64,000 nucleotides of DNA, taken from Lonicera japonica (Eukaryota > Streptophyta > Magnoliopsida > Dipsacales > Caprifoliaceae). The notes under the pieces are model-generated. The model was not told the DNA's origin and did no database searches. It worked only from the letters and a program-made list of their open reading frames with translations. Positions within the stretch are counted from its first letter, which is position 1. Each line of letters begins with the position of its first letter. The stretch covers positions 14,424,501 through 14,488,500 of the forward strand of contig CM038469.1 of the NCBI GenBank assembly GCA_021464415.1. Reading direction: 5' to 3'. The position numbers and the translations under genes are program-made. Below are positions 17,741 to 59,356 of this stretch, one piece after another.

Positions 17741-17848
17741 GACAGCCTTTTAATAATTTTTAGGCTTGTCTACATCTTGCGGAGCACACATGAAAGCTGC
17801 CCCCTCAATCTCAAAGCGATGACGTGGGACACTTTCACGATTGCTCCT

Positions 17849-19310: not shown

Positions 19311-19328
19311 AGAATTATTATTACTGGA

Positions 19329-24756: not shown

Positions 24757-24856
24757 NNNNNNNNNNNNNNNNNNNNNNNNNNNNNNNNNNNNNNNNNNNN
24801 NNNNNNNNNNNNNNNNNNNNNNNNNNNNNNNNNNNNNNNNNNNNNNNNNNNNNNNN
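24757..24856. other. Assembly gap (100 N)
   Basis: Exactly 100 undetermined bases, a conventional placeholder for a gap of unknown size. It lies next to an LTR-like repeat, a likely cause of the assembly break. Confidence 0.98.
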
Positions 24857-27694
24857 AAATGAATTCTAGTAATTTTCATGTAGCAATTGATTATTTTATG
24901 GTTCTAGCTAATTGATACAAAAGGTGACTTAGTTTTGTAAACAAGGAATAGTCTGAATCTATTGATTATTTCATCCTCGAGATCGGCATGACTTTGTTTT
25001 TCAATTCTTCCAGTTTTCTTTTATCCTTGAAATCGGCATGAATTCGTGTTTCATCCTTGAACATAATTAAATTTAACGTTTATGCAATATTATAAGACTC
25101 ATAAGCTTTGCATTATGCAATGGAATATGTTCAAGATTTATATTGTTTGAACTACTTTCTTACATATCAGTACAATCTGTGCATCCTTATAAATACATTT
25201 AATCACATTGAACAAAATACACTTTGAGAAAGTTTTTTCAAGAAACATTTTATCAAACACTTTATGGGTCTCAACCTGAATCTAGAGATTCAAAAGAAAC
25301 TGCAAAATTGAAAGGAAGTACGTCCCTTAATGCAAATGATGCACAACCACTTGGATCAACACAAACTCACAAAGGGGAAGGAAAAAAAAATCTAAAACAA
25401 AAGACTAAAATCAAATAATTGAATCCTCATAGAAGGAGGGCAACTTAAAATGCAAATCAATCGGAAGCGGCGAATGAGTAATTTAGGATAAATAAACGAA
25501 TAGATGAAATGGGAAAAGAATGGGAACGCATATAACTCCTGCTGATTAGAATTCCAAAACTGAAGCAGCAACTGGAGGAGGCAGAGAAATCCATGAAAAT
25601 TCAGATTAATCTATCTCGATTGCTGATACTAATCAAATAAAATTGTAACCCTCGCTTGTTAAATTATAGATTAAATACAAATCCAAAGATATTTGAATTC
25701 GGATCAAAATTCATCCCACAATATACGTAAGACCTAATTAAGAAAGAAGCAAAATGAAGAACTATCGTATGAGTGATCCCAGAAGCAAACCTCTTAAATA
25801 AAAAACGACATAAACACTAAAAACATCGTTAGTGTATTTCATCATTGTACATATGACACTAATCCATCTCAAATATGAAAATCATATCTTTCTCGCATCC
25901 CAAGTGATAATAACATGCGTTCCAACTCAAAAATCATTCATATTGTCAACGCTTAAACCTAAACTTTTGAAGTAGTGTACTATATATATAAGAAAGAATT
26001 TGAGAATGAATGATTGAAGGATTATATGTACTCCCGGTAAAGAGAAAAAGAAGTCAAATTTTGCAAGCCTTTATAATAAGCACACCTTCAACCTTCACAG
26101 CTTCTTTAATACAAAATAATATATGAAGATGGATGGAATTATAGGCATGAAGAACTTAATGTGTGTGTTTCCTCTTTCCCTTCATGTTTCATCAAAATAG
26201 ATAGCACGCACATTACCACTTGTTAGGATCAGCCAACTTTGATTAAACGTACACCACTGTTTCGAGAAACCAAATCTCAAATTTAGTAGGATCAACATAT
26301 AGAATCAAAAAAAGAAATACCATCTTCGAATAAAACTCAATAGTCCGAATCAAATTCAACAAAACAAAAGAATTAGAACAAAATGAATACAATTAGAAGG
26401 CTCGCAACCTTAGAAGCATAAATAATATAATATATGTAGTCGAAATACACCTTGCTAAAGTTTGAAAGTTCCATGAAAACTATTGAAGCACTTTTTGCCT
26501 TTTCTTCTTTGGTCATTAGCTACATATTGGTAGTTGAAAATATGAGACTTTAGACGAATTAGTTAAGGCAGATTGTGAACTAATCCTATGTTAGCTAAGC
26601 TTACCTTAACTTTGATTCTATGGCAGAGATTCTTCATATCACTTTTTTTTTAACCAAAACTCTGTGTAAGAGTGCCAAACTTTAAACTATCAATCTATCA
26701 TCATATATGTACTGAAGCTTCAGTACGGTTCTCATCAGAAATACAAGGTCATTCCATTAAACTCAATTAGGCATTAAATCAAACATGTGGAACGCAAGAT
26801 ACCTTTTAGGCTTTACAAAACAATGGAATACGAACCCAAATAAAGAGAATGAACCGTAAAAATGCAGATGCCCAGGGGAAAGAAATGCTGAAAATACTGG
26901 AAAGCTTACCTTTATGCGCACTTGTCAGTGCAATGTTGTATTATATATTTGTATGATATGAAGATAAAATTGAACAATTAATATAGGGAGGATAAAGATC
27001 TGGAGTGCATTAAGGCTACACCTGAATATTCGTCCTAGACGTTAAAGGAACCACTGCCTAAACTGCGCGTAATGGCAAAATAGCCATTATAAATTAATAC
27101 TCCATATATAGTGAGAAATGCGTCTCTCTTTAAAAATCGAAGCCTTTCTTATATGTTCTACTCTTTCCATTCAAATTACGTGTCCACTTTCCTTTTTAAC
27201 ATGACTCAAATTTATAGTCCCATTCCCTATTTGATGCGCATAATTAAGAAAATTTATTATTGAGTTGACAATTGGCGAGATTGAAATTATTGTTTTATTA
27301 ATTATTAGTAAAAGTGGAATTATCAATTTAAGACATGGGAAATATCTTGTTGCAAAATAATCAAAGATTTAGACATTTTTGTCAAATTTTTGACCTAAAT
27401 AGCTAGACAAACGTGGGAGATCCAGACGATGAAAACAAATGGTTCACAAAGGTATATGTTCTAATACCATAGAAAATGGATAATCCTTCACTGACACAAA
27501 TGAATCAGGAAACAATCATAAAGATGACACAAAAAAAATAATTACTTATGATTTTTTTTTAAAACTAAAGAAATAGAGACATTAATCAACAGTTGAGAAA
27601 ATGAACATAAATTTAGCAATCTCAAACCTAATTAAACAATTAGTTGAAATAATTAATATTGCATACTAAAAATTATCAATTTAGGGTTGGAAGG
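24857..27694. other. Intergenic sequence, no gene recognised
   Basis: AT-rich and stop-dense. The 64-codon frame at 25224-25418 (+) is lysine-rich with no domain features and is not called. TACTCCATATATAG (27101) and CTACTCTTTCCATTC (27158) resemble Stowaway-type termini, but no matching right end with TA duplication was found. Confidence 0.55.
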
Positions 27695-28245
27695 TAGGGG
27701 TGTGCACGGTCTGGTTGACTGGACCGTTGACCATTGGACCGGACCGGACCAAGCACTTTGGTCCTAGGAATTTTGGGACCGGACCGGACCGAATTGCTAG
27801 CTAAGACCGGATTGGACCGGACCAATTTAAACGGTCCGATTTTGGCCAGTCCAATCGGTTTGGGCTTTTTTAATAGGCCAATTTAATTTGGGCTTTTTAT
27901 CTATTTTCACACTTATTCAGCCCATTTTTCATAACATATTTATAGATATGTGAAGCCAATTTTAATGGACCAATGCTTTCTATACATACAAATAAAAATA
28001 CTTAGGTCCAAATTTCAAAAGTCTTGATACCAAAATATATAGGCCCAAAATATAATAAACTCATGTATAGTTCGGTCCGGTCCAGTTTTTGGGTATTTTT
28101 TTTGAGTCGGACTGTAGACTGGACAGAATAGTAATGGTCCAAGATTTTTCGGACCAGACTGGACTGTTGTATTTATAAAACCTGTAAAAAAATCCTATAT
28201 TTCAGTTCGGTTCATTCGGTCCGGGTCGATTTATGCACACCCCTA
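27695..28245. mobile_element. hAT-like non-autonomous element (TAGGGGTGTGCA ends)
   Basis: Terminal inverted repeats TAGGGGTGTGCACGG and TAGGGGTGTGCATAA (reverse complement of the right end) bound 551 bp. Flanks TTGGAAGG (27687-27694) and TCGAAAGG (28246-28253) match at six of eight positions, as for a decayed 8-bp duplication. Subterminal regions are packed with GGACCGGACC/GGTCCGGTCC motifs in both orientations. No transposase is present. The element at 46711-47248 has the same organisation. Confidence 0.7.
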
Positions 28246-29207
28246 TCGAAAGGTATGGGAGAATAAAGCAAGATGGAGAGAGACGTAACCTGTCAAAGAG
28301 AAAGCAAATGACCATATTGCAGCCCATTGGGTATAATGTAGCAGCCTAATCCAGGTGGACATTTAGTATGTAGCCTATATTGCAGCCCATTGGGTATTTT
28401 TTGGGTCAAAGCCCCATTGGGTTTTCCTCTTTCTCAAAGCTTGGGTCAAGTCGAATATCACATAGGTATACAAATTTCAACAGCTTTTTTGATTTTGGGT
28501 TCCAAACTTCCAATTTTGTTCTTATAATTTTTTATTTTTTTTAAACAAAAATGCTTCCAACAAAAATTGAACCTTTCCTGTTAAGCAACTTGAACTCATA
28601 TTTAATTACCGAGTTACGTAACATTATTCTCAAATATAATTATATATATGCAAGTTGCAAAACTAAACCTTTTGTTTAAAAAGAGACTGAATTCGAATAA
28701 TACTCTGGGAGACCAGGGAGGAGTCTTATTTGTTAGTAGTTCACCACTACCTACAAAGCTGAACCATTGGAGCATTTGTAGGATAAAAACATCCCCTTAT
28801 CTTATTTATGTGCTTCAATGTAGATGCCCTTATAATACCCAATCAAATATTTCTGTTTTTCTCCATACTTTGTTATTGTGAATTTTTTAATACCATCACC
28901 TCTAACTCTGAACTAAGACTAGATTTTTGCACACAAGTGATACGTGTGTGACGTCGATAAAAGTGATTTAAAGGAAGAAAAGTTAAAAAAGTAGTGACCT
29001 AGTAGTTGAGGGCATTTTATAACTCTTACATTTGCAAAGATTCAAACCTTATTGCTTACGCTACTAATATTTTTTTTTAATGAAATTACAGCACCAATTG
29101 GCCCAAACTCAATTATTTTTTCCCATGTATTCTTTAGGGCTTTGAATTGGAGATATAAGCTTCAATATATAACTTTCTAATTACAACCACTAATTAAGAA
29201 ATTGGTG
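28246..29207. other. Intergenic sequence with a small direct repeat
   Basis: The 21-bp phrase ATATTGCAGCCCATTGGGTAT occurs at about 28313-28333 and again near 28376-28396. The frame at 28648-28881 (77 codons) shows no family features. Nothing else is recognised. Confidence 0.55.
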
Positions 29208-29732: not shown

Positions 29733-30200
29733 ATGGTTTATCTCAGAGATTCCCGCCTTTATTACACTCCTCCACTTTCTTCAATAAAACTTCATCCGTC
29801 CACTGGTCGATCTATGCGAACAATCAATTCCAATATCTACCAATTTGATCGAAGTGGCTCCTTCAACGGTTCCACAATTGAAAATTCCGTATATCTATCT
29901 AAAAATCTCATCGATTCTGTCATCGATCTCCGCCTCGGCCAACTTGCTTCTCGTCCCAATAACTCCGTCAAGTCGTCTTCTACAGATGAGGACTTTTTCG
30001 ACATCTCTTAAGCTTTCATCAATTACTCTACTTATAGCAACCATATTTCTGGCGAACTACAGAGGCTTGTGATTGCTCCAAATTCTATTAAGGATCCAAA
30101 CACGAATTCAGAGCTTGAACCGGAGCCATGCCTAGGATTTCTTCAGAGGGAAAGCTTCTCGAGTGAGATAATAGAGAATATCTCGTCGGAGGATTTTTAA
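29733..30200 (+). pseudogene. 5' fragment of an ARM-repeat (U-box/PUB4-like) protein gene, inside the MULE
   Basis: One frame runs from the ATG at 29733 through two stops. It reads MVYLRDSRLYYTPPL, then GRSMRTINSNIYQFD and LIDSVIDLRLGQLASR up to DEDFFDIS and a TAA (30009-30011). In the same frame it continues AFINYSTYSNHISGELQRL, ELEPEPCLGFLQRESFSSE and IIENISSEDF to a second TAA (about 30198). This order of motifs is that of the N-terminal region of plant ARM-repeat proteins related to U-box protein 4. Both stops can come from CAA by one C-to-T change. The ARM repeats themselves are absent, so only the first-exon portion was captured. The assignment rests on recalled family similarity. Confidence 0.65.
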
Positions 30201-30563
30201 CTGATGGTGAATATGTGTATGGATAGAAAAAGAGAGAAATAAAGAGAGATGGGTTCTCGATAATGGAGCAGTGGTGTTGATGGTGTGAGGTGGCTGAGAA
30301 AGGAGGTGGTAATGGAGGAGCGAGGGGTGTTATGGTGGAGGGATGCAATATTGTTATTGGACGGTTTTGCCCCTGCTACAGTTGCAATGTGCAAGGCACA
30401 TGGCTGTTTCAGTCCAAAAGGTTAACGGTGTACGGGGTTTTAGACTAAAGTGAAATCAGATTCAAACTTTAAAGATGTGAGTTATGCAAATTAAACTTCA
30501 TGGATTAAAGTATAAAAACGGGTAAACATCAAGGGGATAAATTTTTAATAACTCTTTTTATTG

Positions 30564-32793
30564 GTATCCGTTGAATATCTTCTTGCCCACCTCCATAAGG
30601 CCCAACTATTAAGCACTCAAAATAAACTTAATTATATTCTCAATGGGTTTCAAATTAATAAATAAAAACTTAAAAATTGGTGCATATGGATAGCTTGTTT
30701 TCATGAAATATTAGACATATTTTAATTTATTATTTCCTATATTTAAACTTAATTCATAATAAAAGACCCCCACTAAATCTAGATCGATGTCCAAGTTCAA
30801 ATCGTACCAGAGTTTTATGTAATAGTTCAATTCAAGAAAAAAAAAAGGAACAATTTAATTGAGACCTCATGGGTAATGTTAAAGCTATAATTTTTTGCAT
30901 ATATACAAAATTAGAAATGTCAACGAGAATCTAATTTTGGTTACCAGAAATCCATCACACCATGATCATACTTTGGTTTGGGAGTCTCTATCGGTTCACA
31001 AGGTGATTTATTAATTAGCTATATATATGGGAAAACCTTTGCTACCATTTTTAATTCATATAAATTACTTGCTTTATTATTCTGTCACCAAACTATTACC
31101 TTAAATCCTAAGCATACAAGATTTGTTTTATGTTTATTCCTAGATTGGTCATAAGGAAATTTAGGTGCTTCAACACGAAAGAAAAGGCAACAAATTTACA
31201 AGACAACCAAAAAGAACATTTCCAATGGTTTTGTAATTTTTTGTTTTGTGTAAATATAAATTGACATATATGATTTACACTTCAACTTTTACATTGACGC
31301 TCCTAGTTGTTTTAACAGGGCAATCGAAAAATGTGGACTTTTGGCTCCCCTTCCCTTTTTTTTTTTTCGGAATTTCAATTCGGGAAAACAATCTACAATG
31401 TGACATGTTATGTAATGAAGACATGTTAGCAAATCTATGTTATCAATTTAGTGCCAAAATTGGTAGGATTTCTCAGGTTGAACTAGTTTAATTGTAGAAA
31501 ACAATCAAATCATCATTCTAACCCAGTTTAAATCCCAAATCACCGGTTCACTGAATCAACTCGCTGGACCTCATAACCATGGAACTATTCAATAATTTTA
31601 GTAGATACTTTCAATGTCATTAACAATTTTCTTGAATAGCTAGTGTAGCAATGCACCTAGTCACATTTAAATAAGAAACATAATCTAATTTAAAACGATA
31701 GATTTGATTATTAATTATTTTAATTAGATTTCTTCCCCTAAAAAAGAGTTGGTCTGTAGTGGTTTAATCATTTAGGAATAGTTTAAGCTTTACACTGAAT
31801 TTAACCAGTTAAAAACATTGCTTGTTTATGTTGCCTCTTATAATTCGTACAGAGGTAATATTGCCTCATAATCTATGTACTACCTTAAATATATGCACAT
31901 TAATTCTACACCAAAAAATTAATATCACATTTGGTTTTACAACCCATAAGACACATAACATTCCATTTAAACAAAATAAATGCACATTAGAAGGCAATTT
32001 TATTTGCATGATAAACAATGTAAAATTAAACTATAGGATTTTTACTTACAACACCAACTAAATTATAGAATAATAATATGGTAAAATGATTGAAAAAATA
32101 ATTACTTTTATAAAAAATTAAAGATGAAATAAGTAATTTAACGAGATATTTCTTGTCTCGTATTTATTTTTATGAGAAGTTGGATGTTCATCTTTACTTT
32201 ATTTTTGTGAATTTTTTACCGCTTAAAGAATTTTATTCCATAAAAAAGTTAAAAAGTTACACAATATTTTACTGCATCACTCAACTTATTTTCAGTTCTC
32301 AACAATCTACTGCATCACTCAACTGATTTTCACTCCACAACATTTCATTGCTATTTATACACTAAAATTCCATTTGATAATAACATAAATAATAATAATA
32401 AAAATAATTAATTTATATGAGAAGTTAAAAAATGAAATTAGGCATTTTATAAGATACTCTCTATCCTTCTTTATTCTTGTGGACAATATTATTTAATCCT
32501 AAGAAAATTTTTTAAAGAGAAAAGACAAAAAATAAAAACTAATTTCACTACATATTTTAATTTATTTTTTATATTAATTATTATTATTATTATATAATTT
32601 TTCATGTTACCTCGACAGCCCCAGATACCGGTTTTCACTCCACTATGTATACGGTTTTACTCCCGCACGGATATGTCAGACTGTCGGATGAGAGAATATG
32701 GAAATGCCGGAAGAAAAAAGAAAGAAGAAAGACAACCATCAATCGACAGTTAAACCATCGAATTCAGTCGTAAATTCGAAGAAATCTCTCTCT
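30564..32793. other. Intergenic and upstream region, no gene recognised
   Basis: AT-rich. A MITE-like remnant at about 31210-31310 (AGAACATTTCCAATGG...TTTTGTGTAAAT) resembles the split MITE at 9674-12291. A direct repeat ACTGCATCACTCAACT occurs at about 32271 and 32309. Frames at 31246-31491 and 31822-32061 are not supported by any motif. The last few hundred bases are presumably the promoter of the GT43 gene, but no convincing TATA box was fixed. Confidence 0.5.
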
Positions 32794-32917
32794 CTTGATT
32801 AAACAACACATTAACTCCCAACAGCTACTCTCCATCCCTTTCCTTCAACAAATACCCCACACGCTCTCACCAATAATCTCACCATCCAAACTCCTCTCTA
32901 CTTTCTCTCTCTACAAC

Positions 32918-32940
32918 AGTAGTAGTAGTAGTAGTAGTAG
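32918..32940 (+). repeat. AGT trinucleotide microsatellite in the GT43 leader
   Basis: Seven AGT units followed by a GA run, 28 bp before the chosen start codon. In the in-frame upstream extension it would encode a serine run, as expected of a repeat-bearing 5' UTR rather than conserved protein. Confidence 0.9.
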
Positions 32941-32968
32941 AGAGAGAAAACAAACCAAACGAAAAAAC

Positions 32969-35900
32969 ATGAAACTCCCTATCTCCACACGCCGGAGCAA
33001 CAGCTTTAGAACAATTTCACCTACCGACAACTCCGGAGATGCTGCCAGATCACCGGCATCAATTTTCTGGCTAGTCATCCATGGCATCTGCTGCTTAATT
33101 AGCCTTATTCTCGGCTTTCGATTCTCCAGACTAGTGTTCTTCCTTTTCTTCACTTCAGACTCAACCAATAATTTATACAGTACCTCGACTTTCCGTACTG
33201 CAGCTGATATTGCCGAAACCATCGCTACTCAAACGGCAATGTCATTCTCTACATCTCTGCTCAACTTTGATTCGCCTGCCAATTCAACGGATGTTCAAAG
33301 CAGCAGCCACGTGGTGGTTGGCAGGCACGGGATATTGATCAGGCCGTGGCCGCATCCGAATCCGGAGGAGGTAATGAAGGCTCATAGGATAATTGAGAGA
33401 GTTCAGAAGGAACAGATAGTTCAGTACGGTGTGAAGAATGCGAAAACTGTGATTGTTGTTACTCCGACGTATGTTAGGACTTTTCAGGCTCTGCATTTGA
33501 CAGGAGTGATGCATTGCCTGATGAATGTGCCGTATGATTTGGTGTGGATTGTCGTTGAAGCCGGTGGAAAGACGAATGAAACTGCTTCTTTGATTGCTAA
33601 GTCGGGGATTAGGACTATGCATATTGGATATAAGGAGAAGATGCCTGTTTCGTGGGAGGATAGACACAAGGTTGAAGCTCGAATGCGAATGCAGGCTTTG
33701 AGGTAATAAATTTTGTTCTCTTGTTCTTGGATTTTCCGCATCTGTGCTAAGTGCGAAAGTTGTTAGAGCATCCGCATAGCAGTGTACGATCCTAGGATAA
33801 GTAGGATAAATCTGTCATGTTATATTGTTTTGTGTAATAGACAAATGATAAAATTAAGTTTGGCTACACGAGTATGTAAAATTGGAGAAAATAGCCTTTT
33901 CATCTCAAATGGCATAACTAAAATTGGACAAGATAGATTTTGATTATTTATTTAGCAGGTTGTTAATGTTAATAATGCCGGGCTCCAAAATTGTTATCTT
34001 TTTTAAACAACCAAAGAAAAAAGTTAAAATAGTCGGATTCACTAGTTTGATTGGCCATAAGCTATTTAGTTTAAAAGTTGAAAAAAGAGAACGGGGTGAA
34101 AGAAAATCTGAAAATATTCTCTTGATCGTTTCTTCTTACCAATAAAATTAGTGGACTATCATTTTGATTATTGAGAAATGTTGTTAATTTTGATTATAGA
34201 GGATGTAGATTTGATTATTGGTTAAGTGATCACTAAAATTGATTATGCCATGAGTATTTTAGGCAAACGTTACTAGTATTGGTCATAATTGCTAATGAGA
34301 TTATACCATTTGAGATGCTCCAAATTCCTTATGATATGGACAATTGTTGCATGTTTAGGACTCAAATGAACATCAGATGTATGTTTAGGATGCACATGAA
34401 CATCGGATGTCTGCTTGGGTCACAAACACATACCTAGTGAGATTCAAACCCACATCGGTAGTCTGTTTGATGTATGCTGGCTGGCTGTTTCAACTTTGCA
34501 GGATGTTTAATTTATTTTTTCATGCTCAACTATTGTAGAATACACAAAGTGAGTTGTATGTCTTTATACTACTTACTATATAGAAATAAGACTACTGTAG
34601 ATGCTCTTGTGTTATTGAAATTGAAATTGAAATTGAAGTACTTTGTGTGATGGAGCAGAGTTGTGAGAGAAGAGAAGCTAGATGGGATTGTGATGTTTGG
34701 GGATGATAGTAATATGCATAGCATGGAGCTTTTTGATGAAATTCAAAAGGTGAAATGGTTTGGTGCCTTTTCGGTTGGGATTCTTGCTCATTTTGGTCAT
34801 TCTGATAAAGAACAAAAGAAGGGGAATAAGAATAAGTCGCCAGTGCCGGTTCAAGGTCCGGCTTGTAATTCATCGGACCATTTGGTGGGTTGGCATACCT
34901 TTAACTCGCTCCCTTACAAGGAACAGAACTCCAGTTACATTGGTGATAAGGGGATTGTGCTGCCCAGGAAGATGGAATGGGCTGGGTTTGCATTGAATTC
35001 CAGTTGGTTTGGGATGAGGATGAAGATTTGCCAGAGTGGTTTAAGGATTTGGACGCAGTTGATAGGGATCGAGAGGATGTTGAGAGTCCATTGTCTCTGC
35101 TGGTGGACTCTTCTGTGGTGGAGCCGCTTGGGAGTTGTGGGCGCAAAGTTCTGCTGTGGTGGCTCCGTGTTGAAGCTCGTTCAGATAGCAAATTCCCTTC
35201 CGGGTTAGTCTTGGTTCTTCTTCAGTCACTTCTGCTATTTTATTGTGTGAATTCTTCATGATGCTTATCATCACTGGTACTATACATGCGTTCGTTGTTA
35301 TTTTGGTTATCTTTATGCTAAAGACTTGTGGTTTTTCGCTGAAAAGTTTTTAAGTTTGTGAAAAGTTGACTTTGATAGGCGAATGTTGGTTTGTAGAGAT
35401 ATGAAATCCAACATATAGCCAGATTGATCTTAACTTGCATGAGCCAAAGCAACTTGATATTAGTTTACACATCAATCTTGCTTAAGCTTACTAAAATGTC
35501 TTTCATTGTCTCAATGTTGTATTGGGCTCCTCTAGAGTGATGAGATAATTCTATAGGAGAGTTGAAAAAATATGAACCGTTAGTTTAATATTATACGAAC
35601 AGTCCAGATTTGAGCGACAGCATTGCTAATAGTAAGGATACAGTTACGATTTCCTACTAGAGCGCGAATTAGAGCACCACAGAGTGAGTGTGATGTTGGC
35701 GCTTCACACTCCCTCCCAAAATTCTTTGATCGTGTAGAAGCTTTAAATACATGTTCAACATCTTGTTCATTATTTCCTTATGGGTTATGGTTGCAAGTTG
35801 CGATTGTCCAGTGTCCACTAATTACTAAGCTCACATTTTTCACTTGCTAATATTGTTAGTGTAAAACAATATATGCACCTCTAAATTGCATCAGATAGAT

Positions 35901-36330
35901 GCATGCATATATATACAGGGAGGCTCTAAAGTAGACTGTCTGCTCGTGGAACAAGCCTTTACTGACAATTTTTCATCGCAATGGAAAAGTGTCACGAAAG
36001 GCCACGTCCACTTATAGAGACGTGTTATACGTATATATGTACACATTTACATCTTCATGATGACTTTTTTGAGTAATACCTGTTGATTCATGCAGATGGA
36101 TAATTAACCCTCCATTAGAGGTAACCGTCCCAGCAAAACGCTCATCATGGCCAGATGCTCCTCCTGAGCTCCCATCAAATGAAAACATGATGAGCATCCA
36201 AGAGAAATTTGAGAAGCGTGCTGAAACTCGTTCCCTTAGATTAAGACACACTTCTCGAAACAAGAGAAAAAACAAAGCCAAAAGTAGCGTAGAGTCGCAA
36301 GTTTCCATGAAGCATTCTGAAGAGAAGTGA
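32969..36330 (+). CDS. IRX14: GT43 xylan biosynthesis protein, IRX14-like; frame broken in exon 2
   Basis: Three exons: 32969-33702, 34659-35203 and 36096-36330 (stop TGA 36328-36330). Introns are GT-AG and codon phase is kept at both junctions. About 500 residues if the frame is repaired, close to the family length. The N terminus (MKLPISTRRSNSFR) and a membrane anchor at residues about 31-50 fit a type II Golgi protein. The GT43 domain follows: VVVGRHGILIRPWPHPNP, VVTPTYVRTFQALHLTGVM, DLVWIVVEAGG, then exon 2 VVREEKLDGIVMFGDDSNMH (DDS at the DxD position), VQGPACNSSDHLVGWH and, in the other frame, ESPLSLL and VEPLGSCGRKVLLWWLRVEA. Exon 3 ends in a basic tail. IRX14 works with IRX9 and IRX10 proteins in elongating the xylan backbone in the Golgi. 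The frame changes at 35003/35004, where one base appears missing. An in-frame ATG at 32795 is upstream, but the family starts MKL. Intron 1 holds a MITE-like insertion. Confidence 0.85.
33764..34320. mobile_element. MITE-like insertion in GT43 intron 1
   Basis: It is bounded by AGAGCATCCGC on the left and ATTTGAGATGCTC on the right, giving short inverted ends (GAGCATC/GATGCTC) of the widespread plant AGAGCATC...GATGCTCT class. The intervening sequence is AT-rich and non-coding. The flanks give no clean target duplication, so the call is tentative. A similar left end, TTAGAGCATCTTCAATG, occurs at 63581. Confidence 0.4.
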
Positions 36331-37066
36331 AACTCCATTACTTTTTGGGATCTGAAAAGTGCTATTTAGCCTCGACAAATTCGAAGACTAGTGAATATTC
36401 TTACACGAGTAAATATAAGGCATCTATTACAGTTGGTGAGTATATAGGTGCATTTCCACTCAAGTTCATGATTTTCTTTTTATATTCAGCTTCTTCTTTT
36501 TGGGTGATTGGATTCTCTAGTTTTGTGAAAAGGGTATATTTTCTTGCTGCATTCAGTGTTTGGAGTAAACTCAGAATAGAAAATTCTACAGTTTTTTTTT
36601 CCTTTTATACGTAAAGTTTCAATAGAAATCATTGATTTGTGTTTTCACTCGCTGAATTAGAAACTATTGATATTGTATTGAAGCAACATGGGCAATGGGA
36701 AACCAATGCTTTCCTTTTCCCCAGAAATCCATGCCGGTTTGGTTAGGGATCATAATGATTTTCCTTGAATAAAGTTATGAAATTTGCTCATTCCATAAGT
36801 ATGCAATTTAAGATCAAAACCACAACAAAGTATGATGTGCCAAAAGTGAGAAATATTTTAGCCCGAAGCAAAGAAACCTAAAGTGTGAAAAGGAAGCAAA
36901 AAAGTAAAGTATGTAACCCTGATGTATAGAAAACATTTCATCTTTATTGAATCTGTCAAGTAACAGCTAAAGTTTACGTATAAGCGAGTAGGCTAGTTTG
37001 GATGGAAAAAGCGCTCTCTCTTGAACCCTGGGAGATCCTGAATTTGCATTTCATCTTTGCTAGTAT

Positions 37067-37139
37067 TGTACTCTCTCCGTTAGTTTATTTGATGTTTGTT
37101 GGGGTAACCAACTTAACATTACTACATCAAGGAGAGAGT
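37067..37139. mobile_element. Short Stowaway-like palindrome
   Basis: The ends TACTCTCTCCGTTAGTTTATT and AAGGAGAGAGTA are inverted copies (CTCTCTCC / GGAGAGAG), with TA at both edges as for Tc1/mariner-type MITEs. At 73 bp it is far shorter than usual and is probably an internally deleted remnant. Confidence 0.5.
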
Positions 37140-39248
37140 AATTGACTGATTGTTGTAAATGCAATGAGTGAGACTTGAACTTGCAATTTTAAATTCTGGT
37201 GAGGCTCATTTACAACTGGACCAAGCTTGCTCTTGCGAATATTAGATTTTTTGCTTTATAGAAATGAAAATTGACAAATTCATACCTCGGTTTATCTTTT
37301 ATCAATGATTATGCTCGAAAGAAGCCCAGGGCTATTGCTTAATGTATGCCTGCAGGCTAATTGTATGTTCAAAACCCATTTGTTTCAAGGTAAATTAATC
37401 TTTACCTAAAATGAAATAATACCTTATTCGCTACAATAGCTCTAGATAAACATAAATATCCGACATATCAAATGTGGCTACCATATATTAGTTAAAATAA
37501 CTACTCACATTTCATTTTAAGTAATGAGTAATTGACACATTGATATGTCAATTTTTATGTTAGATTTTTATTATATCCATGTAGAATTACTCTATTCACT
37601 ATCTTTGTGTAAATATTGCATACGAATGCAGGTGCTTCTTTTGTTCACAACATCATAAACACAAACAAGCTAGTTATATGGTGTATAAAATAAATTTGAA
37701 TAATCAAGAATTGAACCAAAGAGAAAGTAGAAATGAAAAGGTTTTGCCGGATGATCCACTTCCTAATAAAATTCAGTATCCCAATTCGTTTAATTTTTTA
37801 ATTACACTATCTTTACCCAGGTTATTTTGAACTTTTAACATGTAGGGGTGTCGATATCCTCATGGATGAGAATATCATCCCTTTGCTAGTTATGGTAGTC
37901 TAAATGATTAGTATACAATAAAAGATTCACCTTTTTTAACTCGGTAAAAATAAGACTACATTCATTACTTATATAAAAAATATTATATTAAAACGATATG
38001 AAACGATATTGGAACTTGAGAAGTCATATTCGTGTTTTAAATTTTCGTCACGATATCGTGTTCAAATTCTTACATAAATTGGAGTGCTATCGTGTTTATT
38101 ATGTCTTGACATGTCAATCCTGCTCAAATTATGGAAATTCCCCTCTTCACTTGTGTCGGCATATTTACAATAGCTTAAAAATTGTAATGTTCTGTTTGAG
38201 TTCGATAAAAATGACAAAAATAAAAATAAAAATTGTTCTTTGTCATGTTAAAAATTTGTGCTTTTTAAATTGATCACATGGACTTAATATATATATATAT
38301 ATATAAGCAAAACATGTTTGAGAGTGGATCCATTTTTAGCATTCTTTATATAGCTTTTAAAAGGTGGAGTGGGTTTGTAGTAGAAGGGATGAAAGTTGGC
38401 ACAACCATATTGTATCAAACTTCTATAATGGTTGAGGCGAGACAAAGAGAGAAAATGTTGGGTATATTTGGAGTACCATATTTCGCTACACCGGCTTTAA
38501 TAATTGTTTGTTGTTTTTATTGATCAACACCTAGAAAAACGTTTCAAGTCATATAATAGAAAATGTTTGGTGCACGATAATGTCACTAGCTTATTATAAG
38601 AAGTGTATTTAATGTAGGATGTATCAGATACTATATTATTTTTCATATCATGAAAGAACGTCGATAAGTATACTTTTGTTTTAGTCACAAACACCCCTTG
38701 TTATTTAAGCCCTCATCTTTTTACTCTTTTTTTTTCTTTTTTTCTTCTTTTTTTTTTTTTTTTTCTAGAAACACACCATTCCACCCGCCCCTTATTTAAA
38801 ATTGAATGAAGTTGTTAATTAAACACACTTGGCTTATGTTGGCTTATGTTAGCCGAGCTTCTTAAGGTGTACTCATTGCCCAATTCAAAAATTCAATACA
38901 CTCGGCCAATGTAGACGGAGAATGCTTGCATATACTTTGCTTAATGCTCACCGAGTGAGCATTCTTGATCAATTATTTTATTTGGCTTACTTGAACCAAG
39001 TAGAGAGCTATATACTCGATTGTAATGGACCAAGTAACATCCGGGTTTCAAAGTTTTGAACTCTATTATGTTTTATTTTTTCTTCTTTGTTTTCAATGGA
39101 ATCATATGGGAGTTAAAGAAAACAAAAATATTAAGGTAACAATGAAGCAAATATACCTCTTTTAGCTTATATTTATCTTCTAAATCACCACCAAAACCTT
39201 TTTTTTTTTTTTTTCCATTTTCTAAATTCTCCATCTTCAAAATACCTA

Positions 39249-39250
<2 letters not shown>

Positions 39251-39280
<30 letters not shown>
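39251..39280. repeat. CT microsatellite
   Basis: Fifteen or so uninterrupted CT units. No gene leader is recognisable downstream on either strand. Confidence 0.95.
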
Positions 39281-39283
<3 letters not shown>

Positions 39284-40152
39284 GCACTCACTATTTATGA
39301 TTCTGGATACTTTATCAACTTAAACAATGTTGTTTGTGCTTGATCTCTTGTTCAAACAGTCATTTTTGGGGAGTCATGAAAGTAGGAGTAAGAGAGGTGG
39401 TGGATTTGTTTTGTTGCTTGTTAAGGGTTAATTAGTTAAATTTATTAATTTATTAATTAAAGGGTTAATTATTTTAACTATTTGGTAAAAAGGTAAAGGG
39501 AGGAGAGTAATAGAAGTAACATTTTAATTTAATAATATAAAAATATTCAAGAAGTGTTTGTAATAAAAAAAAAGAAAGTGTATTTATCAGCACACTTTAT
39601 AAAAAGACCCAATATCTTATGGGTGGGACATATCACTCATATTTCCAGCTGTAGATAGCCCACTCTTCCTCATTATCTCATGTGACCATAATAGTTCTCT
39701 GCCTATCTTTTAAAATTCTTGCATGTGCAGAATTCAATATATATATTAGTAGGCAGGTCAATGAGAAATTGGGCAGATCTGAACTTTTGGAAGAAGCTTA
39801 ATCATTTATGTGATAAATGGCTCCTTCTATTTGATAAAAAAAAATGCTAAATAAACTTACTTAATGTTCTCTAATTAATATTGAACCAATATCGTATCCA
39901 ATTTTCAGCTAAATAAACTTCACTACGAAAAGTTATATAGATTACTAAAGTATTTAGACTAAGGAAAAAAGTAACTGCACTTTAGAATTATAATTCTTAA
40001 TTTGAGACGGATAGAGTGTTTGTTAAATGAGCGTATCGTTATCCAATTATTTGATACAACTTACAAGTATACCTAAAAAGATGACTAATTACACGGTTAA
40101 AGGTTTAAGTACGCGATCTAAAAGAAAAAGAAAAATCCTTAATTTCCAAGAC

Positions 40153-40165
40153 TATAAAAGGGCCC
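40153..40165 (+). promoter_or_regulatory. TATA box and GGGCCC motif upstream of the DUF247 gene
   Basis: TATAAAA at 40153-40159 runs straight into GGGCCC (40160-40165) and lies 172 bp before the DUF247 start codon. If used, it would give a 5' UTR of about 145 bases. GGCCCA-type elements are known targets of TCP transcription factors. Here this is inference from position and sequence only. Confidence 0.5.
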
Positions 40166-40330
40166 ATGGGGTTGGATTAGGTCCAATTTCAACATCACAA
40201 GATATTATCATCTCACTCCAAATATTTTGTAAGATTTTAATGTAAAGCAGTATTCTCAAAGCATAGAATATAAATAAAGCTACTAAGCTTAAGAAGAATC
40301 AACCCAAAGGAACAGCAAATCTCAACAGAA

Positions 40331-41926
40331 ATGGTTGCTGTATTCAACAAAGAGCTATTGAGTTGGTACCTCATTACCCTCAAGCTCAAAGAAACTGTAG
40401 ATGCCGGAATTACAAACTTACAAAGCTCAACGTCAACCCGTCCAATCAAATTGCTCGAGAACACTCCCCACAACCGTGACGACCGCCAGCAGCAATCTGA
40501 TCCCCGGGAAATCACGGCCAAGGACGAAACCGACACAGAAGAAGGCCCAAAGTCTCCAAACTCCGAGTGGGTAATCGCCATTAGAGGAAAACTCGAACAA
40601 GCAAAACAAGATGATGTAGCCAGTTTATGGGGAAAACTATGCATCTATAGAGTCCCTCAATATCTAAGAGAAGGTGACGACAAAGCTTACATCCCTCAAA
40701 CTGTGTCATTGGGTCCTTACCACCACGGCAGGCGGAGGCTCCGCCCCATGGACCGCCACAAGTGGCGGTCCGTTTACCAAATGTTGAAGCGCAATAACCA
40801 CCAAATTAAGCTTTATCTTGATTCTATCAAAGAACTTGAAGAAAAAGCACGTGCGTGTTATGAAGGAAATATTACACTAGGCAGCAATGAGTTTGTGGAA
40901 ATGATGGTACTAGATGGCTGTTTTATCCTTGAGCTTTTTCGAGGCGCTGCTGGTGGATTCAAGCACCTCGGGTACTCTTGGAATGACCCAATATTCGCCA
41001 TGCGTGGGTTCATGCACTCAATCCAGCGAGACATGATAATGCTCGAGAATCAGATTCCTCTGTTCATACTTGAGCGGTTGCTAGGGCTTCAGTATGGAAA
41101 CCCAGACCAGAAATGTTTGGTAGGAAAGCTCGTACTTCAGTTCTTCGACCCTCTAACGCCGACGGACGAGCCATTAACAAAGAGCGATAGAAACAAATTA
41201 GAATCATCGATTGAATTTTCAAACGCATTCGATCCGCTATCGGACCAGGGAGGCCTTCACTGTCTCGATGTTTTTAGACACAGTTTGTTGCGTAGAGGGC
41301 CTCAACCAGAACCAAGGATTTGGATCAAGAGACGGTCCCACGCAAGCCGGGTAGCAGACAAGCGTAGGCAACAATTGATTCATTGTGTAACAGAGCTAAG
41401 AGAATCTGGGATTAAATTCAAGAAGAGGAAAACAGACCGTTTCTGGGATGTTAAATTCAAGAATGGAATTCTGAGGATACCTAGGCTCTTGATTCATGAC
41501 GGCACAAAGTCGCTTTTCTTGAATCTCATTGCCTTTGAGCAGTGTCACCTTGATAGTAGCAACGAAATAACGTCTTATGTTATTTTCATGGATAACTTGA
41601 TAAACTCACCTGAGGATGTGAGCTACCTTCATTATTGTGGGATCATCGAGCATTGGCTGGGGAGTGATGGTGAAGTAGCTGACCTCTTTAACAGGCTTTG
41701 TCAAGAGGTGGTTTTTGACAGTAATAACAGTTATCTTTCAAGATTATCGGAGGAGGTGAACAGATATCACGACCATAGGTGGAACGCTTGGAAAGCGAGC
41801 TTGAAGCATAACTATTTTATTAATCCATGGGCTATAATTTCTTTTGTAGCTGCTGTGGTCTTGTTGGTGCTCACTCTTGTGCAGACATTTTATGGGATCT
41901 ATGGCTATTACAGGCCGCTTTCTTGA
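40331..41926 (+). CDS. DUF247 family protein (UPF0481-like), complete, single exon
   Basis: A 531-residue uninterrupted frame. After a variable, polar N terminus (residues 1-100) the DUF247 domain begins at about 105 with CIYRVPQYLREGDDKAYIP and SLGPYHHG. It continues with MVLDGCFILELFR, the DMIMLENQIPLFIL block (the most conserved part of the family), IKFKKRKTDRFWDVKF with FKNGILRIPRLLIHDGTKSLFLNLIAFEQCH, and FMDNLINSPEDV. It ends with a hydrophobic segment (about 499-521), so the protein is probably anchored to a membrane by its C terminus. Plant genomes carry many DUF247 genes. A few act in self-incompatibility or in senescence and stress, but the biochemical role is unknown. The start is the first ATG of the frame after the TATA box. 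It converges on the RER1 gene. The 80-codon antisense frame 41744-41986 is a shadow. Confidence 0.93.
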   Translation: MVAVFNKELLSWYLITLKLKETVDAGITNLQSSTSTRPIKLLENTPHNRDDRQQQSDPREITAKDETDTEEGPKSPNSEWVIAIRGKLEQAKQDDVASLWGKLCIYRVPQYLREGDDKAYIPQTVSLGPYHHGRRRLRPMDRHKWRSVYQMLKRNNHQIKLYLDSIKELEEKARACYEGNITLGSNEFVEMMVLDGCFILELFRGAAGGFKHLGYSWNDPIFAMRGFMHSIQRDMIMLENQIPLFILERLLGLQYGNPDQKCLVGKLVLQFFDPLTPTDEPLTKSDRNKLESSIEFSNAFDPLSDQGGLHCLDVFRHSLLRRGPQPEPRIWIKRRSHASRVADKRRQQLIHCVTELRESGIKFKKRKTDRFWDVKFKNGILRIPRLLIHDGTKSLFLNLIAFEQCHLDSSNEITSYVIFMDNLINSPEDVSYLHYCGIIEHWLGSDGEVADLFNRLCQEVVFDSNNSYLSRLSEEVNRYHDHRWNAWKASLKHNYFINPWAIISFVAAVVLLVLTLVQTFYGIYGYYRPLS

Positions 41927-42496
41927 GGCTAATGGAAATAAAAGCCAATTATTCCTTTTTCTTTTTGGGGTTACAAAAGAAATCAAAACTTACGATTTTG
42001 ATACGTTTGGCCGGTTGTTGCTTATATTTGATTTCTTTACATATGGATTTGTATTTGATTTACAAGGTGAGTTATTGCAAGGACTAAGGAGTGAGGATGT
42101 TTTTGTATGACTGTACATTGAGTTTTACATAAATTTACAAGATAATTTGTTTTGTTTCCTCTTCTTTCCTACTAAATTTCCAAGAAGACAAAGGGGAAGA
42201 AATGCAATCTAAATATTAGTTCCACATGTTCAGAATTTCAGAAGTCTAAATTCATCTATCAATCTATCATTACTACTAAAAATGGCACTGAATAGCACTT
42301 ACTGCTTACTAGATCAATATGAAAGAAGCAAGAATGTAATCTGTTCCTTATCTATACAGAGTAAGAGCTTAACAATAAACCAGAACGTTTGGAAAAAGCC
42401 CATCCAAGGGAAAGTATGCATACCACCTTTCTCAAAAAGCTCTGGCCGCTGAAAGAAAAAGGCCGCTGGCCAAATACATGTGATTAAAGAAGGAAA
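41927..42496. other. Short convergent intergenic region (3' UTRs)
   Basis: 570 bp between the DUF247 stop codon and the RER1 stop codon. The two transcripts converge here and their 3' UTRs probably occupy most of it. The AT-rich frames at 41827-42110 are overlaps with the DUF247 end, not genes. Confidence 0.6.
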
Positions 42497-45400
42497 TCAA
42501 TCTCTTGGAAGAAGGTTGTCAGTTTCAGTTGAAGGCGCCTTCTTTCTGTCGTAGCGCTGAAAACAGACGGAATTATAAGCATTGATAAATATGATGACAG
42601 TATAAATAACATAAAACTAGAACTCGTAGCACACTTGATTTCTATGCATAACTATACCTTGTAATTTGATATTATGTAGATAAAACATTTTCAAGACTAT
42701 GTGAATGCTTTTGGTCAAGTGGTTATAGCACATGTTATCTATACTAGAGGCCATGGATCCAAATCTCATTGCTAGTGGTATTTGTTTCTCCAAATCAATG
42801 AAAACGGTTATTTGGTAATTTCAAGCCCATAACAAAATGTAATCGCCTTCTCTTACTCATGCTTAATATGATAGAATAGATACAATGATAAATATATGAG
42901 AGTGGGTAAGGGGGTACCTGCTTCCCAAAGGAAAATGGGACGTATTTATATTTGATCATATGAGAAATCTGCCTCCTCATGGTAAGAGCAAACAATACAA
43001 TCCAATAGAAAAGTAGTATTGGCCAAAACACGGGCACGTCAAATATCCTGAAGAATGTAATCACAAAAGCAATGCAGAAGGCTTTTGTGATAGAGTACCT
43101 TCCAGTAAGAAAAACATAGACTTAAAATAATGTAAGCAATGGAATTGGATTTTGTTTATAGAGCAGAATTTTAGACAAGATTTGGCAGATGATAAAATAG
43201 TATGTCATAGTATGACAAAGAGAGAAATAAAAATGCTAAAACATAAAGTGACAACTATAAGTGGCTTATTTACCTTCCAGCACCAAGAACATTCACAATG
43301 TAAATGGAAGGAAGAAACAAACAATATTGCTGAACAAAAAAATTTCTTTATACCCTTGTGAATACAGGCATGGACAGACAGTGTTTGGAACTCAAAAAAG
43401 ATGAAGACAAATTTTTATTTCATATGGTTAACTATTGGTTATGTCACAATTTACACAAAATTGGATTGATTTCTAAAATACAAGGCCTGCAGATAAATAA
43501 AGAAGTTAAAATTTGCAATGAATGGCAAATGACCAGAAAATGCATGTTAGAAATAACAGCAGTGGTACTGAGAGCAAAGAAGCAAGCATGCATAAGATGG
43601 TCACTACGGAATACAACAAGCCTGTAAAGCATAATTCAAGCAAATTTTGCTGTTGACCTGCAAAATATCATAACTTTCATCTTCAATAATAATAAGCTAA
43701 AAAGAAATGAATACTGCTCATGCTTACAAATTGTGAAAATAGTCGTGGTGTCCAATGAGAGGGGGAAAAGGAAAGAGAAAACATTGAGAGTGTTCACTTC
43801 AGTAGTTCAGTTACATAACACACTAGCCATCTATTTTCATGGTTCAACTCTTTGATAAGATTAAGAAACGGTTTACTAACGCACTAACTAAAACCATGGG
43901 CAGAGCTACATGTTCCCGGGGGTGGGGCTGCAATTGCCCCCCTTTAATTTTAAAAATTAGGTATTTTAGTGTCAAATTATTATTGTACAATAAATAAATT
44001 AAAAAAAAATAAAAATTGGCCCCCTTTGAACTTCTTTTCAGAGCTATAGTTCTGCCTGACCCGCCCCCCCAAAACATCCACACCCAAACCCCTCCCCCAC
44101 CACCATAGTTAAACTCCTGGATCCGTCCCTGGCTACAACACTGCACAAGTAATGTATTCGAAATCATCATATTAACTCACCAAACAAACATGGAAACATA
44201 GCCACAAAACTTCCTGCACCGATATAAGCCTCCTCCAAACTCTAGCCCCTAACCAAGACTTTGCATGCTGTAATCAGGGCCGGACTGGTCCTAAGGGTGT
44301 ACGTGGTGGGCAATCACACAAGGCCCTTATTAAAATAAAGGCTTTTATAGCTTGTAAGGGGTCTAGTATTGTAAACGCTGCATTAATATACGGGCTCAAA
44401 AAGCATCGTATGGAAAATGGCTCATCTGTTTCAATTTTTAAACAGGACCCTATATATTTCAGGGCCGGCCCAGGATGTAATCCAAGAACGCAAAGTTCAC
44501 CAGCTTTCAGCATCCCATGAGTGTGACTAAAACTTCCAGTCTTACACACAAGTAGTCAACAAACAAACTATATGATCTACTGTTTACTTATAAACATTAA
44601 AATGCCCTCGACTCTCCAAACTATCATCCCAAATTTACAACCATTAACCCTCTCTCTAACCCCCATTGTTACGCATTCTAATAAGCTCCTCTTCATTACC
44701 ATTATAATTGCTCACTCAAGAATAAAATAGAAATGCCCCCTCTAAAACTTCCTCTCCATAACAAATACAATATCAATCCAATTTTAAAACCACTTCAAAG
44801 CAAAACCAAAATATGTTCCAAAAAAAAATCCCTTAAACCCACTTAAATTCCTGAAATAAGTCCACCCCCCTTCTCCTCCACATCAAGTTAATTGCAAAAT
44901 TCTTGAGCTATGCCAGTATATTCTCATTAATAAATATATATATACACAAAAGATTAAACTTAACAAAGTGTCTCACACTCTTCTAGTCCAGACAATATTT
45001 TCCCTTATAAAAGTGAATTTCACCAGCAGAATGCGGAAATTGGATATTGAGATAAAATAGTTCTTGAATCAATTCTTTAAAAGCAATGATACATGTACCA
45101 AGTTAAATGATCGAGCTAATACATGATCAGACGAAGGCACTTTTTGACAGTTAATTCGATCATCGTTACTCGTTCACCTTTTTCAATGTTTGATTAATGA
45201 AATTAACGGCACCGTACCAGAATTTGAATTCAGGAAGGCGACGAACGAAGGGGCGGAACTCGTCGGATCCTCGGGTGGGCAAACCCGGGCCATCGTCGGC
45301 AAGGTCTTGTAATTCCGGGTCAACCTGAGGAGAGAGAAAGCCGATGAGGAGGTTGAGGATGTAGATTCCGACGGCGTAAGAGACCACGTAGAAGCCTTGC

Positions 45401-45594
45401 ACAAAGTAGACGCGTACGACGTAGATTAAAGCAATTGACAAGCAAGCGATCCAACGGTAGAGAACAAAGGGGGTTGACTTGTCGAGGAGGTGTTGGTACT
45501 TCTGTGACGCGGCGAATGTCCACCGCGACGCGACGGCTGCCGGAGTTGTTGAGGAGAGATCTTCGGTTGAGCCACCGGCCGGAGTGGATTCCAT
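42497..45594 (-). CDS. RER1: RER1 family Golgi-to-ER retrieval receptor
   Basis: Three exons on the minus strand: 45594-45218, 43098-42918 and 42556-42497. Introns of 2119 and 361 bp have GT-AG borders and phases that join exactly, giving 205 residues. Exon 1 begins [12 protein letters not shown] and has [20 protein letters not shown], two membrane segments (about 42-62 and 67-88), [12 protein letters not shown] and [16 protein letters not shown]. Exon 2 gives [48 protein letters not shown] and FGKQ, with two more membrane segments. Exon 3 gives [19 protein letters not shown]. This is the full RER1 layout with four membrane spans. RER1 recycles between cis-Golgi and ER through COPI and returns membrane proteins by recognising their transmembrane segments. 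Length fits the family (about 190-210). Intron 1 carries two hAT-like MITEs. Confidence 0.95.
43895..44131. mobile_element. hAT-like MITE in RER1 intron 1 (first)
   Basis: The left end CATGGGCAGAGCTACATG and the reverse complement of the right end, CAGGGACGGATCCAGGAG, are imperfect inverted repeats of the CAGGGGCGGA-CCAG class. Flanks ACTAAAAC (43887-43894) and GCTACAAC (44132-44139) agree at six of eight positions. The 237-bp body is C-rich then T-rich and non-coding. It belongs to the same broad class as 7980-8405. Confidence 0.6.
44275..44473. mobile_element. hAT-like MITE in RER1 intron 1 (second)
   Basis: It begins CAGGGCCGGACTGG and ends GGGCCGGCCCAG; the inverted ends CAGGGCCGG / CTGGGCCGG are typical of the GGGCCGGCCC group of plant hAT elements. 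The flanking 8-mers GCTGTAAT (44267-44274) and GATGTAAT (44474-44481) agree at seven of eight positions. The element is 199 bp and non-coding. It lies only 143 bp from the first MITE. Confidence 0.7.
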
Positions 45595-46700
45595 TTTGGG
45601 TTTTTTTGTTTTTTCAAGATACTGTAATTATCTTTTATAAATTGTGTGTGTAATGCGTAAACAAGTGATTGAGAGAGAAAGAGGGACGGAATGGGAGTCT
45701 GCCACTCCGCAATTGTCATGCTCTCTCTGTCTATAGACTCTTCTTCTTCTATGTGTGAGGATTCGACAGCCCGTTGTGTAATCGGGTCAGGCGGGTGTGT
45801 CATTGGATCTTGACATTCCACACACTTTTTTTGCATTTTAAATTTAATAATTAAATTAAGCCACTTTTTAATATATTTGTCAAAATAGTACACTTTTAAA
45901 AATATTAAAAGAAAAATGAGTGATTTTGAATCATGTTTTTAGGTTGGATAACTATTTTAAGGAAAAAATAGCTAATCAAAATCACTATTTTTAAAAATGC
46001 GCTAATTTAATAAATATATTAAAAAAATAGCTTAATTTAGCTATTAAATTTAAAAAGTGACTTACTTTGACAAAAAAAATTGATATTTCATTCATTCTTT
46101 GTTTTTTCTTGCGTATTGCTATTTAAAGTTTAAACTACAATATTTAGGATTTGGTGTTTGAATTTAAAGATTGATAATTGATTTTGATTTTTGAAGTTTT
46201 GAAAACTAAATTAAAAAAAAATTGTTTGTGTTGTTTCTTAATATCATATCTGAATAGATTATGTTTGCTTGAATAAATCTACTAAATAAATATTATTCAG
46301 ACAATTTTTCGCTTATCCTATTGTTTTATAAAAATGAATATATTAAAGCAATAATATTTTTTTTATAAATTATATAATAAAATAAAATTTGAAGAAATTA
46401 ATTATTATCATTATCATGATCAAAACCTAGAGAAAGAAGAAAAAATGCACCATATCTGTATATATATATAGAGAGAGAGAATGGGGAAGGGGGCATCGAC
46501 ACTGTCTTGGACGAGCATCGTTGAACGAAGAAGTAATTTAGTTAAAAGGGTATGGGTGAAATAGACATTTACCATATTTAAGTAATAAGTGTTAAGAGGC
46601 AATGTAGCCTCTTAAAAATTGAAGCTTATTTTGACGAAAAATTCAAACTTCAAAAGTATTTAATGGACAAAACAAAAAGCTTTTATAAAATATGAAATTT
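45595..46700. other. Upstream region of RER1 and intergenic sequence
   Basis: The first 150-200 bases are CT/GA-rich on the minus strand, like a plant 5' UTR and core promoter. The frames overlapping the RER1 start (45426-45893 minus, 45435-45653 plus) are shadows. A TA/GA run lies at 46460-46480. Nothing else is recognised. Confidence 0.5.
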
Positions 46701-46710
46701 GAATGGACTA

Positions 46711-47248
46711 GGGCTGTGCGCAGTTCTGTTAATCAAATCGTGCGGTTTTAGCGTAGACTGAACTGACAAGTAGGTTTTCAGATGGTGGTCAATCGAGCAG
46801 AACCGGTGAAGGCTTAAAACCGGTTAGGGTTGGTTCGGTCAAAGTCGATTCAGTTAATCGGTTTTTGTCGATTTTAGGTTTGGGCAATTGGGCCTATTTT
46901 ATATTGTTGGGCTATGGCTTAAAAATTATCTTCATATTGTTGGGCCATGACTTAAAGTCATTTTTGATAGAAAATTGAGCTTGTTTTTAATTAATTAAGC
47001 ACTTTCCTTCTTAAATCATTTTTGACAAAAAACACAAAAAACACAAAAGATTTTAATATTTTTCTTCTTTAGCATTTTTTTTATAAAACACCTTTTGATT
47101 CGGTTAAGTTTTTACCGGTTCTATAACATCGGCAAACGACAACCGAACCGACCCCTTTCGATTTTTATATTCTCCAATCGAATCGGGATCAAAAACCTTA
47201 AAAATCAGCTAGTTCGGGATGTTTTTTTGGTTTTTTTGCACGCCCTTG
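46711..47248. mobile_element. hAT-like non-autonomous element (GGGCTGTGCG ends)
   Basis: The 10-bp phrase GAATGGACTA occurs exactly on both sides (46701-46710 and 47249-47258), including a likely 8-bp target duplication. The inner ends are AGGGCTGTGCGCA and, reversed, AAGGGCGTGCAAA. Subterminal regions carry repeated AACCGGTT/CGGTTCGGT motifs. No transposase is present. End sequence, length (538 bp) and composition match the element at 27695-28245. Confidence 0.75.
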
Positions 47249-47258
47249 GAATGGACTA

Positions 47259-48185
47259 TTCAAATTTCATATGTCTCAAACAAATAACCCCTTACTTGGT
47301 TGGAGTTTATGAGATATTTTGAAATTCTCAATTTCCTTCCATTCAAGATTATTTTGTTTAATTAGCGTTTTAGCTCAGAATATCAAATTTTTGGCAACCC
47401 ATGATTCCAAGTATCATCTCATATATTTCTAAAAGGACAATTATAGCCTTCTCACTTTTAGTAAATTAAATATTTATTCTATTCTCACTTTTATTTGGGC
47501 CAACAATAGAAAAAAAAAATCTTCCATTCCAAGAAAAACGGTTTCTTAGAATATAAAATTCCAATTCTTTTCCCAAACCTCCTACAAAACGAGCCCCGAA
47601 TGTTTTATTCATATATTATATTTTTTTGTGATATTATTAAATTGCCATCCACCCAAATTAAAACTTATCTTTTATGATATTATTAAATTGCAATATTTCA
47701 GCCATTTTTTGTCTTTTGCATAACAAAAATATAAAGGGCATACATCATTTGCTTAATTAGGAGCAACAACAATTTTATTAATCATGATAAGTCAATTATA
47801 TGTAACATCAAAGTTGTTCAATATTATTGACGCAGTGCCTTTTTTACAAGTTCCTCTTCCGTCCCAAGTCACTTCAGTAGCCATCAAAGTTAGTTTGTCT
47901 ACACCACAATTAAAAAGATACAAAGATAAGATGCAATATAGTAAACCTTTTTTCCAATGATACGTTGTAATGACGAATTAGATATAAAACATATGTAGAT
48001 ACAATAAGCTAGTAATTGTCGGTGGAGAATTAACTCTAGAAGGAGCTGAAAAAAGTTTATGGTAAATATTGCGAAATTAAAAATAAGTTTTAAGAAATAA
48101 GAAAATATGCTAGAAACAATAAACTCAAATAATCAAGTAAGTTTGCAATAAGTAAATAAGTTTGAGTTTAGAGAGATTTAACCAC
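47259..48185. other. Intergenic sequence left of the Athila-type element
   Basis: No gene recognised. The last part (AGTTTAGAGAGATTTAACCAC) joins directly to 59357 (CAAATGTTTTGTTCACATGG) once the inserted element and one target copy are removed. The joined sequence resembles a diffuse plant repeat rather than a gene. Confidence 0.5.
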
Positions 48186-48190
48186 AATAC

Positions 48191-49456: not shown

Positions 49457-49472
49457 AATTACCCCCAAACAA
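49457..49472 (-). other. Polypurine tract of the Athila-type element
   Basis: Minus strand GTTTGGGGGTAATT directly precedes the 3' LTR start TGATAAGTG. This is the expected site for plus-strand priming. Confidence 0.7.
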
Positions 49473-58069: not shown

Positions 58070-58083
58070 CGGCAACGGCGCCA
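58070..58083 (-). other. Primer-binding site complementary to tRNA-Asp
   Basis: Minus strand TGGCGCCGTTGCCG, one base from the 5' LTR end. It is complementary to the 3' end of plant tRNA-Asp(GTC) (...CGGCAACGGCGCCA), the primer commonly used by Athila-group elements. Confidence 0.85.
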
Positions 58084-58084
58084 A

Positions 58085-59351: not shown

Positions 59352-59356
59352 AATAC

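Follow-up and report, generated by a model that had tools for sequence, protein, structure and literature searches.

Does a xylan-synthesis gene of Lonicera japonica carry a fresh null allele, or is its broken reading frame a product of the genome assembly? The question arises from the window, a stretch of 64,000 nucleotides on scaffold CM038469.1 (here C7), which contains a predicted gene of the IRX14 type whose frame shifts by one base in its second exon. A flaw of the assembly is the most likely reason for the missing base, and either way the gene is not lost.

The IRX14-type gene and its missing base

The gene consists of three exons joined by GT..AG introns (Table 1), which sum to 1514 nt, i.e. 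a multiple of three plus two. Residue 359 is the last one in the intact GT43 frame; from position 35004 on, the conserved sequence continues one frame over. A homopolymer context is absent at the missing base. The 1-bp deletion that the first-pass annotation had placed in exon 2 is borne out in its coordinates, in the exon length of 545 nt and in the frame, the same exon measuring 546 nt in an intact twin copy found elsewhere in the assembly. The predicted spliced product of the window copy comprises 428 amino acids, 359 normal ones followed by 69 shifted ones, and would end at a stop codon within the last exon.

Table 1. Positions of the features discussed, in window coordinates.
Feature	Positions	Strand	Remarks
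100-N scaffold gap	24757-24856	.	left end of the contig with the frameshifted gene
In-window part of the 128,863-bp contig	24857-64000	+	contig is C7:14449357-14578219; homologous to C7:14001489-14132500
IRX14-type gene, exon 1	32969-33702	+	734 nt; start codon at 32969; GT43 domain begins; PF03360 39.6 bits
IRX14-type gene, exon 2	34659-35203	+	545 nt (twin: 546 nt); PF03360 85.3 bits on 34660-35001
Missing-base site in exon 2	35003..35004	+	from comparison with the twin copy
Remainder of exon 2	35004-35203	+	out-of-frame conserved GT43 end; PF03360 18.3 bits, alone below the 27-bit cut-off; profile positions 156-207
IRX14-type gene, exon 3	36096-36330	+	235 nt including the original stop; stop codon of the broken frame at 36101
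DUF247 gene	40274-41923	+	open in both copies
Rer1 exon	45169-45627	-	open in both copies; 21-bp in-frame length difference from the twin
LTR retrotransposon	48191-59351	-	LTRs 97.1% identical; protease, reverse transcriptase, RNase H, then integrase

When searched with the GT43 profile PF03360 (Pfam cut-off 27 bits), the window gene scores above the cut-off in exon 1 and again in exon 2 up to 35001. The whole domain does not lie in one frame in the window copy, where profile positions of about 156-207 are shifted, whereas the twin protein matches the full profile (1-207) in a single frame at 176 bits. Ahead of the break, at residue 260, the window copy has the DDS form of the DxD motif, which has been linked with the IRX14 subgroup (PMC4132061). 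Furthermore, among the matches listed (120 of 509 homologues), the names that include an IRX number are IRX14 or IRX14H and not IRX9, as judged by names rather than by a tree, and the best match among those listed, a protein of Lonicera macranthoides, is 99% identical and continuous through the site. The nearest solved structures by sequence are animal glucuronosyltransferases (four distinct sequences, best E 1.2e-12). Going by these sequence features, the window gene and its twin are IRX14-type GT43 genes, with a putative role in xylan synthesis. Common to the window gene and to IRX14 and IRX14L of Arabidopsis (PMC4132061) are the PF03360 domain and the DDS form, and the IRX-numbered nearest homologues of the window gene are IRX14; unlike the Arabidopsis genes, the window copy is shifted after residue 359, keeping the DDS motif and losing the C-terminus together with the last part of the domain.

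The intact twin and other relatives

The twin gene is located upstream on the same scaffold, at a distance of 448 kb and in the same orientation (C7:14009113-14012475). It has the same three exons, and its total of 1515 nt is open and encodes 504 amino acids. With flanks included, 4283 of 4303 positions are identical between the two copies, and in exon 2 the missing base is the only difference. Around the site the identity is uninterrupted for 506 bp to the left and 267 bp to the right, the nearest differences being at 34497 and 35271. Only two substitutions (33136 and 36210) fall within about 1.5 kb of coding sequence, and each of them is synonymous when read in the intact frame; the former was judged by the identical protein, the latter by reading the codon.

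Searching the source genome (967 contigs) with PF03360 returned at least 14 exon matches at six or more loci, two of which are the window gene and the twin, the latter with its two matches within C7:14009650-14011319. A second IRX14-type gene, a paralogue on C4 that is 67% and 78% identical in the first two exons, reads through the site and has no stop within the parts matched by tblastn (first two exons compared). In the PF03360 search, both match frames of this gene contain one TGA each, and our guess is that the matches overrun there into an intron. An alignment over the site of the twin with nine of the 120 listed homologues, namely Lonicera macranthoides and eight further ones, has L357-N358-S359-R360-L361 invariant in all ten sequences. 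Since the twin, the C4 paralogue and the homologues are continuous through the site, the deletion is truly there in the assembly and no product of chance.

The contig and its assembly background

The broken copy sits on a contig of 128,863 bp that is flanked by 100-N gaps at both ends, the right-hand one at 153720-153819 in window coordinates extended beyond the window (C7:14578220-14578319). We compared this contig with C7:13964501-14132500, a region of 168 kb with zero N; matches longer than 150 bp were kept in the initial comparisons, and those longer than 500 bp and above 90% identity in the comparison of the full contig. The contig is homologous to the twin region from its first base onward, directly after the gap, with three 1-bp indels within the first 60 bases. 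The homology reaches 152410 of 153719 (extended coordinates) and stops there, 1,309 bp before the contig's end, because the twin DNA compared goes no further. Matches in order cover 24857-28955, 30150-48190, 59352-69968 and 113905-152410 (extended coordinates), the last 22.5 kb at 98%; the outermost matches of the contig are forward, in order and 98% identical. Substitutions amount to 0.9-4.6% by block. Altogether, 87,039 of the 128,863 contig bases fall in matches above both thresholds, repeats included; the other 41,824 lie outside such matches, and the retrotransposon contributes about 11 kb to that number. An overlap between the two neighbouring contigs was also sought: the one to the right, over its initial 6.2 kb, has no match longer than 150 bp to the extended window or to 150 kb of twin DNA.

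From about 78 to 103 kb in extended coordinates, the contig is inverted and rearranged relative to about C7:14037800-14058300, at 90-94% identity and with related repeated units adjoining; this stretch is either a haplotype inversion or a paralogous repeat. The retrotransposon is present in the window copy only, between two copies of a 5-bp target repeat (48186-48190 and 59352-59356), and the twin site at about C7:14024300 is uninterrupted, with a single target copy. From its domain order, we take the element to be of the Gypsy type.

Published statistics point to the Lonicera japonica 'Sijihua' genome of PMC9130202 as the source assembly; the genome that we analysed totals 886,079,548 bases, close but unequal to the published 886,131,823. 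The 'Sijihua' assembly measures 886 Mb against an estimated 817.45 Mb, an excess of about 69 Mb, at a heterozygosity of 0.74%, and has 5.70% duplicated BUSCOs and 5,502 pseudogenes (PMC9130202). It was built from long reads by Canu correction and SMARTdenovo, followed by three Pilon rounds and LACHESIS Hi-C scaffolding, and its reads are deposited as SRP353698 (PMC9130202). In the main text of that paper 'purge' and 'redundan' occur 0 times, and a purge step was not found there. A related situation has been described in PMC8081667, which reports heterotype false duplications as well as a locus that stayed unpolished as the other haplotype took the reads, with frameshift errors in TLK1 as the result. 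Both that case and the window have a divergent haplotype in the main scaffold, a frameshift in one of two copies and an oversize assembly. Unlike that case, the window comes from a plant and from SMARTdenovo and LACHESIS rather than FALCON-Unzip, and the read capture is here one that we infer.

Consensus error, true allele or duplication

We propose that the contig beginning at 24857 is, very probably, an unpurged haplotig, namely the other haplotype of C7:14.001-14.133 Mb. Two haplotypes too different to be merged would have been left as separate contigs, and without a purge step Hi-C scaffolding would have inserted the extra one at a distance of 448 kb, with a 100-N gap on either side; the IRX14-type gene of the window would then be an allelic copy of the intact gene. 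An extra haplotype contig explains why there is a gap on either side, why the homology runs almost from end to end and why the assembly is oversize. Short reads with the correct sequence would align better to the intact twin, so that the site would be left unsupported and Pilon would be unable to mend the base. Indeed, with identical flanks of 506 bp and 267 bp, short reads that include the base have a perfect match in the twin and would leave the window copy uncorrected. If the contig is a haplotig, the missing base is probably an unpolished consensus error rather than a real heterozygous frameshift, and to the joint reading, a haplotig with a residual long-read consensus error, we assign a probability of roughly 0.6. 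Observed directly are the missing base, the intact twin, the gaps, the homology over almost the whole contig and the assembly recipe as published; we infer from them that the two copies are allelic, that the twin captured the reads and that the base is an error in place of a real variant. As for the two options offered by the first-pass annotation, an assembly error in an intact gene is the better supported one, and it is as unproved as the null allele. That annotation says nothing of the 100-N gap at 24757-24856, and it had no view of the region 448 kb away of which the sequence after the gap is a second copy.

Several observations bear on the step from haplotig to error. The remainder of the window copy looks functional from its sequence, with two coding substitutions and open frames in the neighbouring DUF247 and Rer1 genes, which favours an error. 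Seven frame-breaking indels fall within open frames of at least 150 aa, and the missing base alone breaks a frame that reaches this length in the twin too; the other six lie in frames that are long only in the window contig, so that neither copy is better throughout. Base loss in general does not provide an error signature, as 1-bp indels across six aligned blocks number 63 for the window contig and 58 for the twin. Taken by block, the 1-bp losses disagree (window contig against twin, 14 v 5 and 30 v 17, but 10 v 25), and isolated losses in short runs, three in the window contig against zero in the twin (p 0.25), are too few to count. What counts against the proposed explanation are the 41,824 unmatched contig bases, the inverted stretch at 90-94% identity and a block divergence of 0.9-4.6% that exceeds the genome-wide 0.74%; furthermore, a base that is missing outside a homopolymer, and still missing after Pilon, can be real variation too, which speaks against an error.

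Heterozygous plants can harbour recessive nulls. The missing base of a haplotig could also mark a real frameshift allele for which the cultivar is heterozygous and which the intact allele and the C4 paralogue shelter, and this we hold to be a possible but clearly less probable explanation. That the base lies outside a homopolymer and that its loss outlasted three Pilon rounds agree with such an allele, as do the lack of an overall 1-bp loss bias in the contig and the possibility of recessive nulls in a heterozygous plant; the otherwise undamaged gene and the identical surroundings, which make a polishing failure likely, argue the other way. So does the shifted tail, which has no match in a search of public proteins (9 candidates, 0 at E <= 0.1), although this result is weak, since gene finders often avoid frameshifts. 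If real, the break would be recent, given that both coding substitutions are synonymous. A real and recent heterozygous IRX14 frameshift in cultivated honeysuckle, yielding a 428-residue protein with the nucleotide-sugar-binding DDS motif kept and the end of GT43 lost, appears rather unlikely.

Much less probable still is a true segmental duplication that spans about 130 kb, with the copies 448 kb apart and the second IRX14-type copy starting to decay. Both copies do lie on one scaffold in the same orientation, and they are set apart by the retrotransposon insertion, the inverted stretch and a divergence of up to 4.6%; yet homology that sets in at the very start of the contig and extends, as far as the comparison reached, to 1.3 kb before its end, with gaps at both ends, would be a double coincidence for a duplication and is expected of a haplotig, and the assembly exceeds its estimated size by about 69 Mb. 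A rescue by splicing, raised earlier as a way in which the deletion might prove illusory, would require an unrecognised intron that removes or bridges the shifted segment and leaves the gene intact. We found no evidence in support of such an intron; to the left and right of the site the twin exon has the same sequence, with one extra base as the sole difference, and the homologues are continuous through the site. A hidden intron was rejected on the grounds of the twin exon, and its probability is negligible.

Under the haplotig with a consensus error as under a true allele, the intact copy and the second IRX14-type gene remain, so that a loss of xylan synthesis does not follow, and the broken copy does not imply a plant without IRX14. 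The intact twin in the same assembly and the gene on C4 weaken the earlier expectation that losing this gene should have consequences. In Arabidopsis, the irx14 mutant has a mild growth phenotype and none that is strong, and IRX14 and IRX14L are partly redundant, the irx14 irx14L double mutant being almost lethal (PMC4132061). A search of one paper library for Lonicera japonica together with IRX14 found no paper. The locus also serves as a warning that genes on extra haplotype contigs in this assembly can look duplicated and broken at once; with such contigs present, the number of pseudogenes (5,502 in PMC9130202) and the counts of gene families may be inflated.

On the same contig, another single base is missing in isolation and away from any homopolymer, at extended coordinate 147076, with the nearest other differences 1420 and 520 bp off. 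To the left of the contig, the minus strand of the window has broken open frames at 17357-20144, which resemble the remains of a Copia-type retrotransposon.
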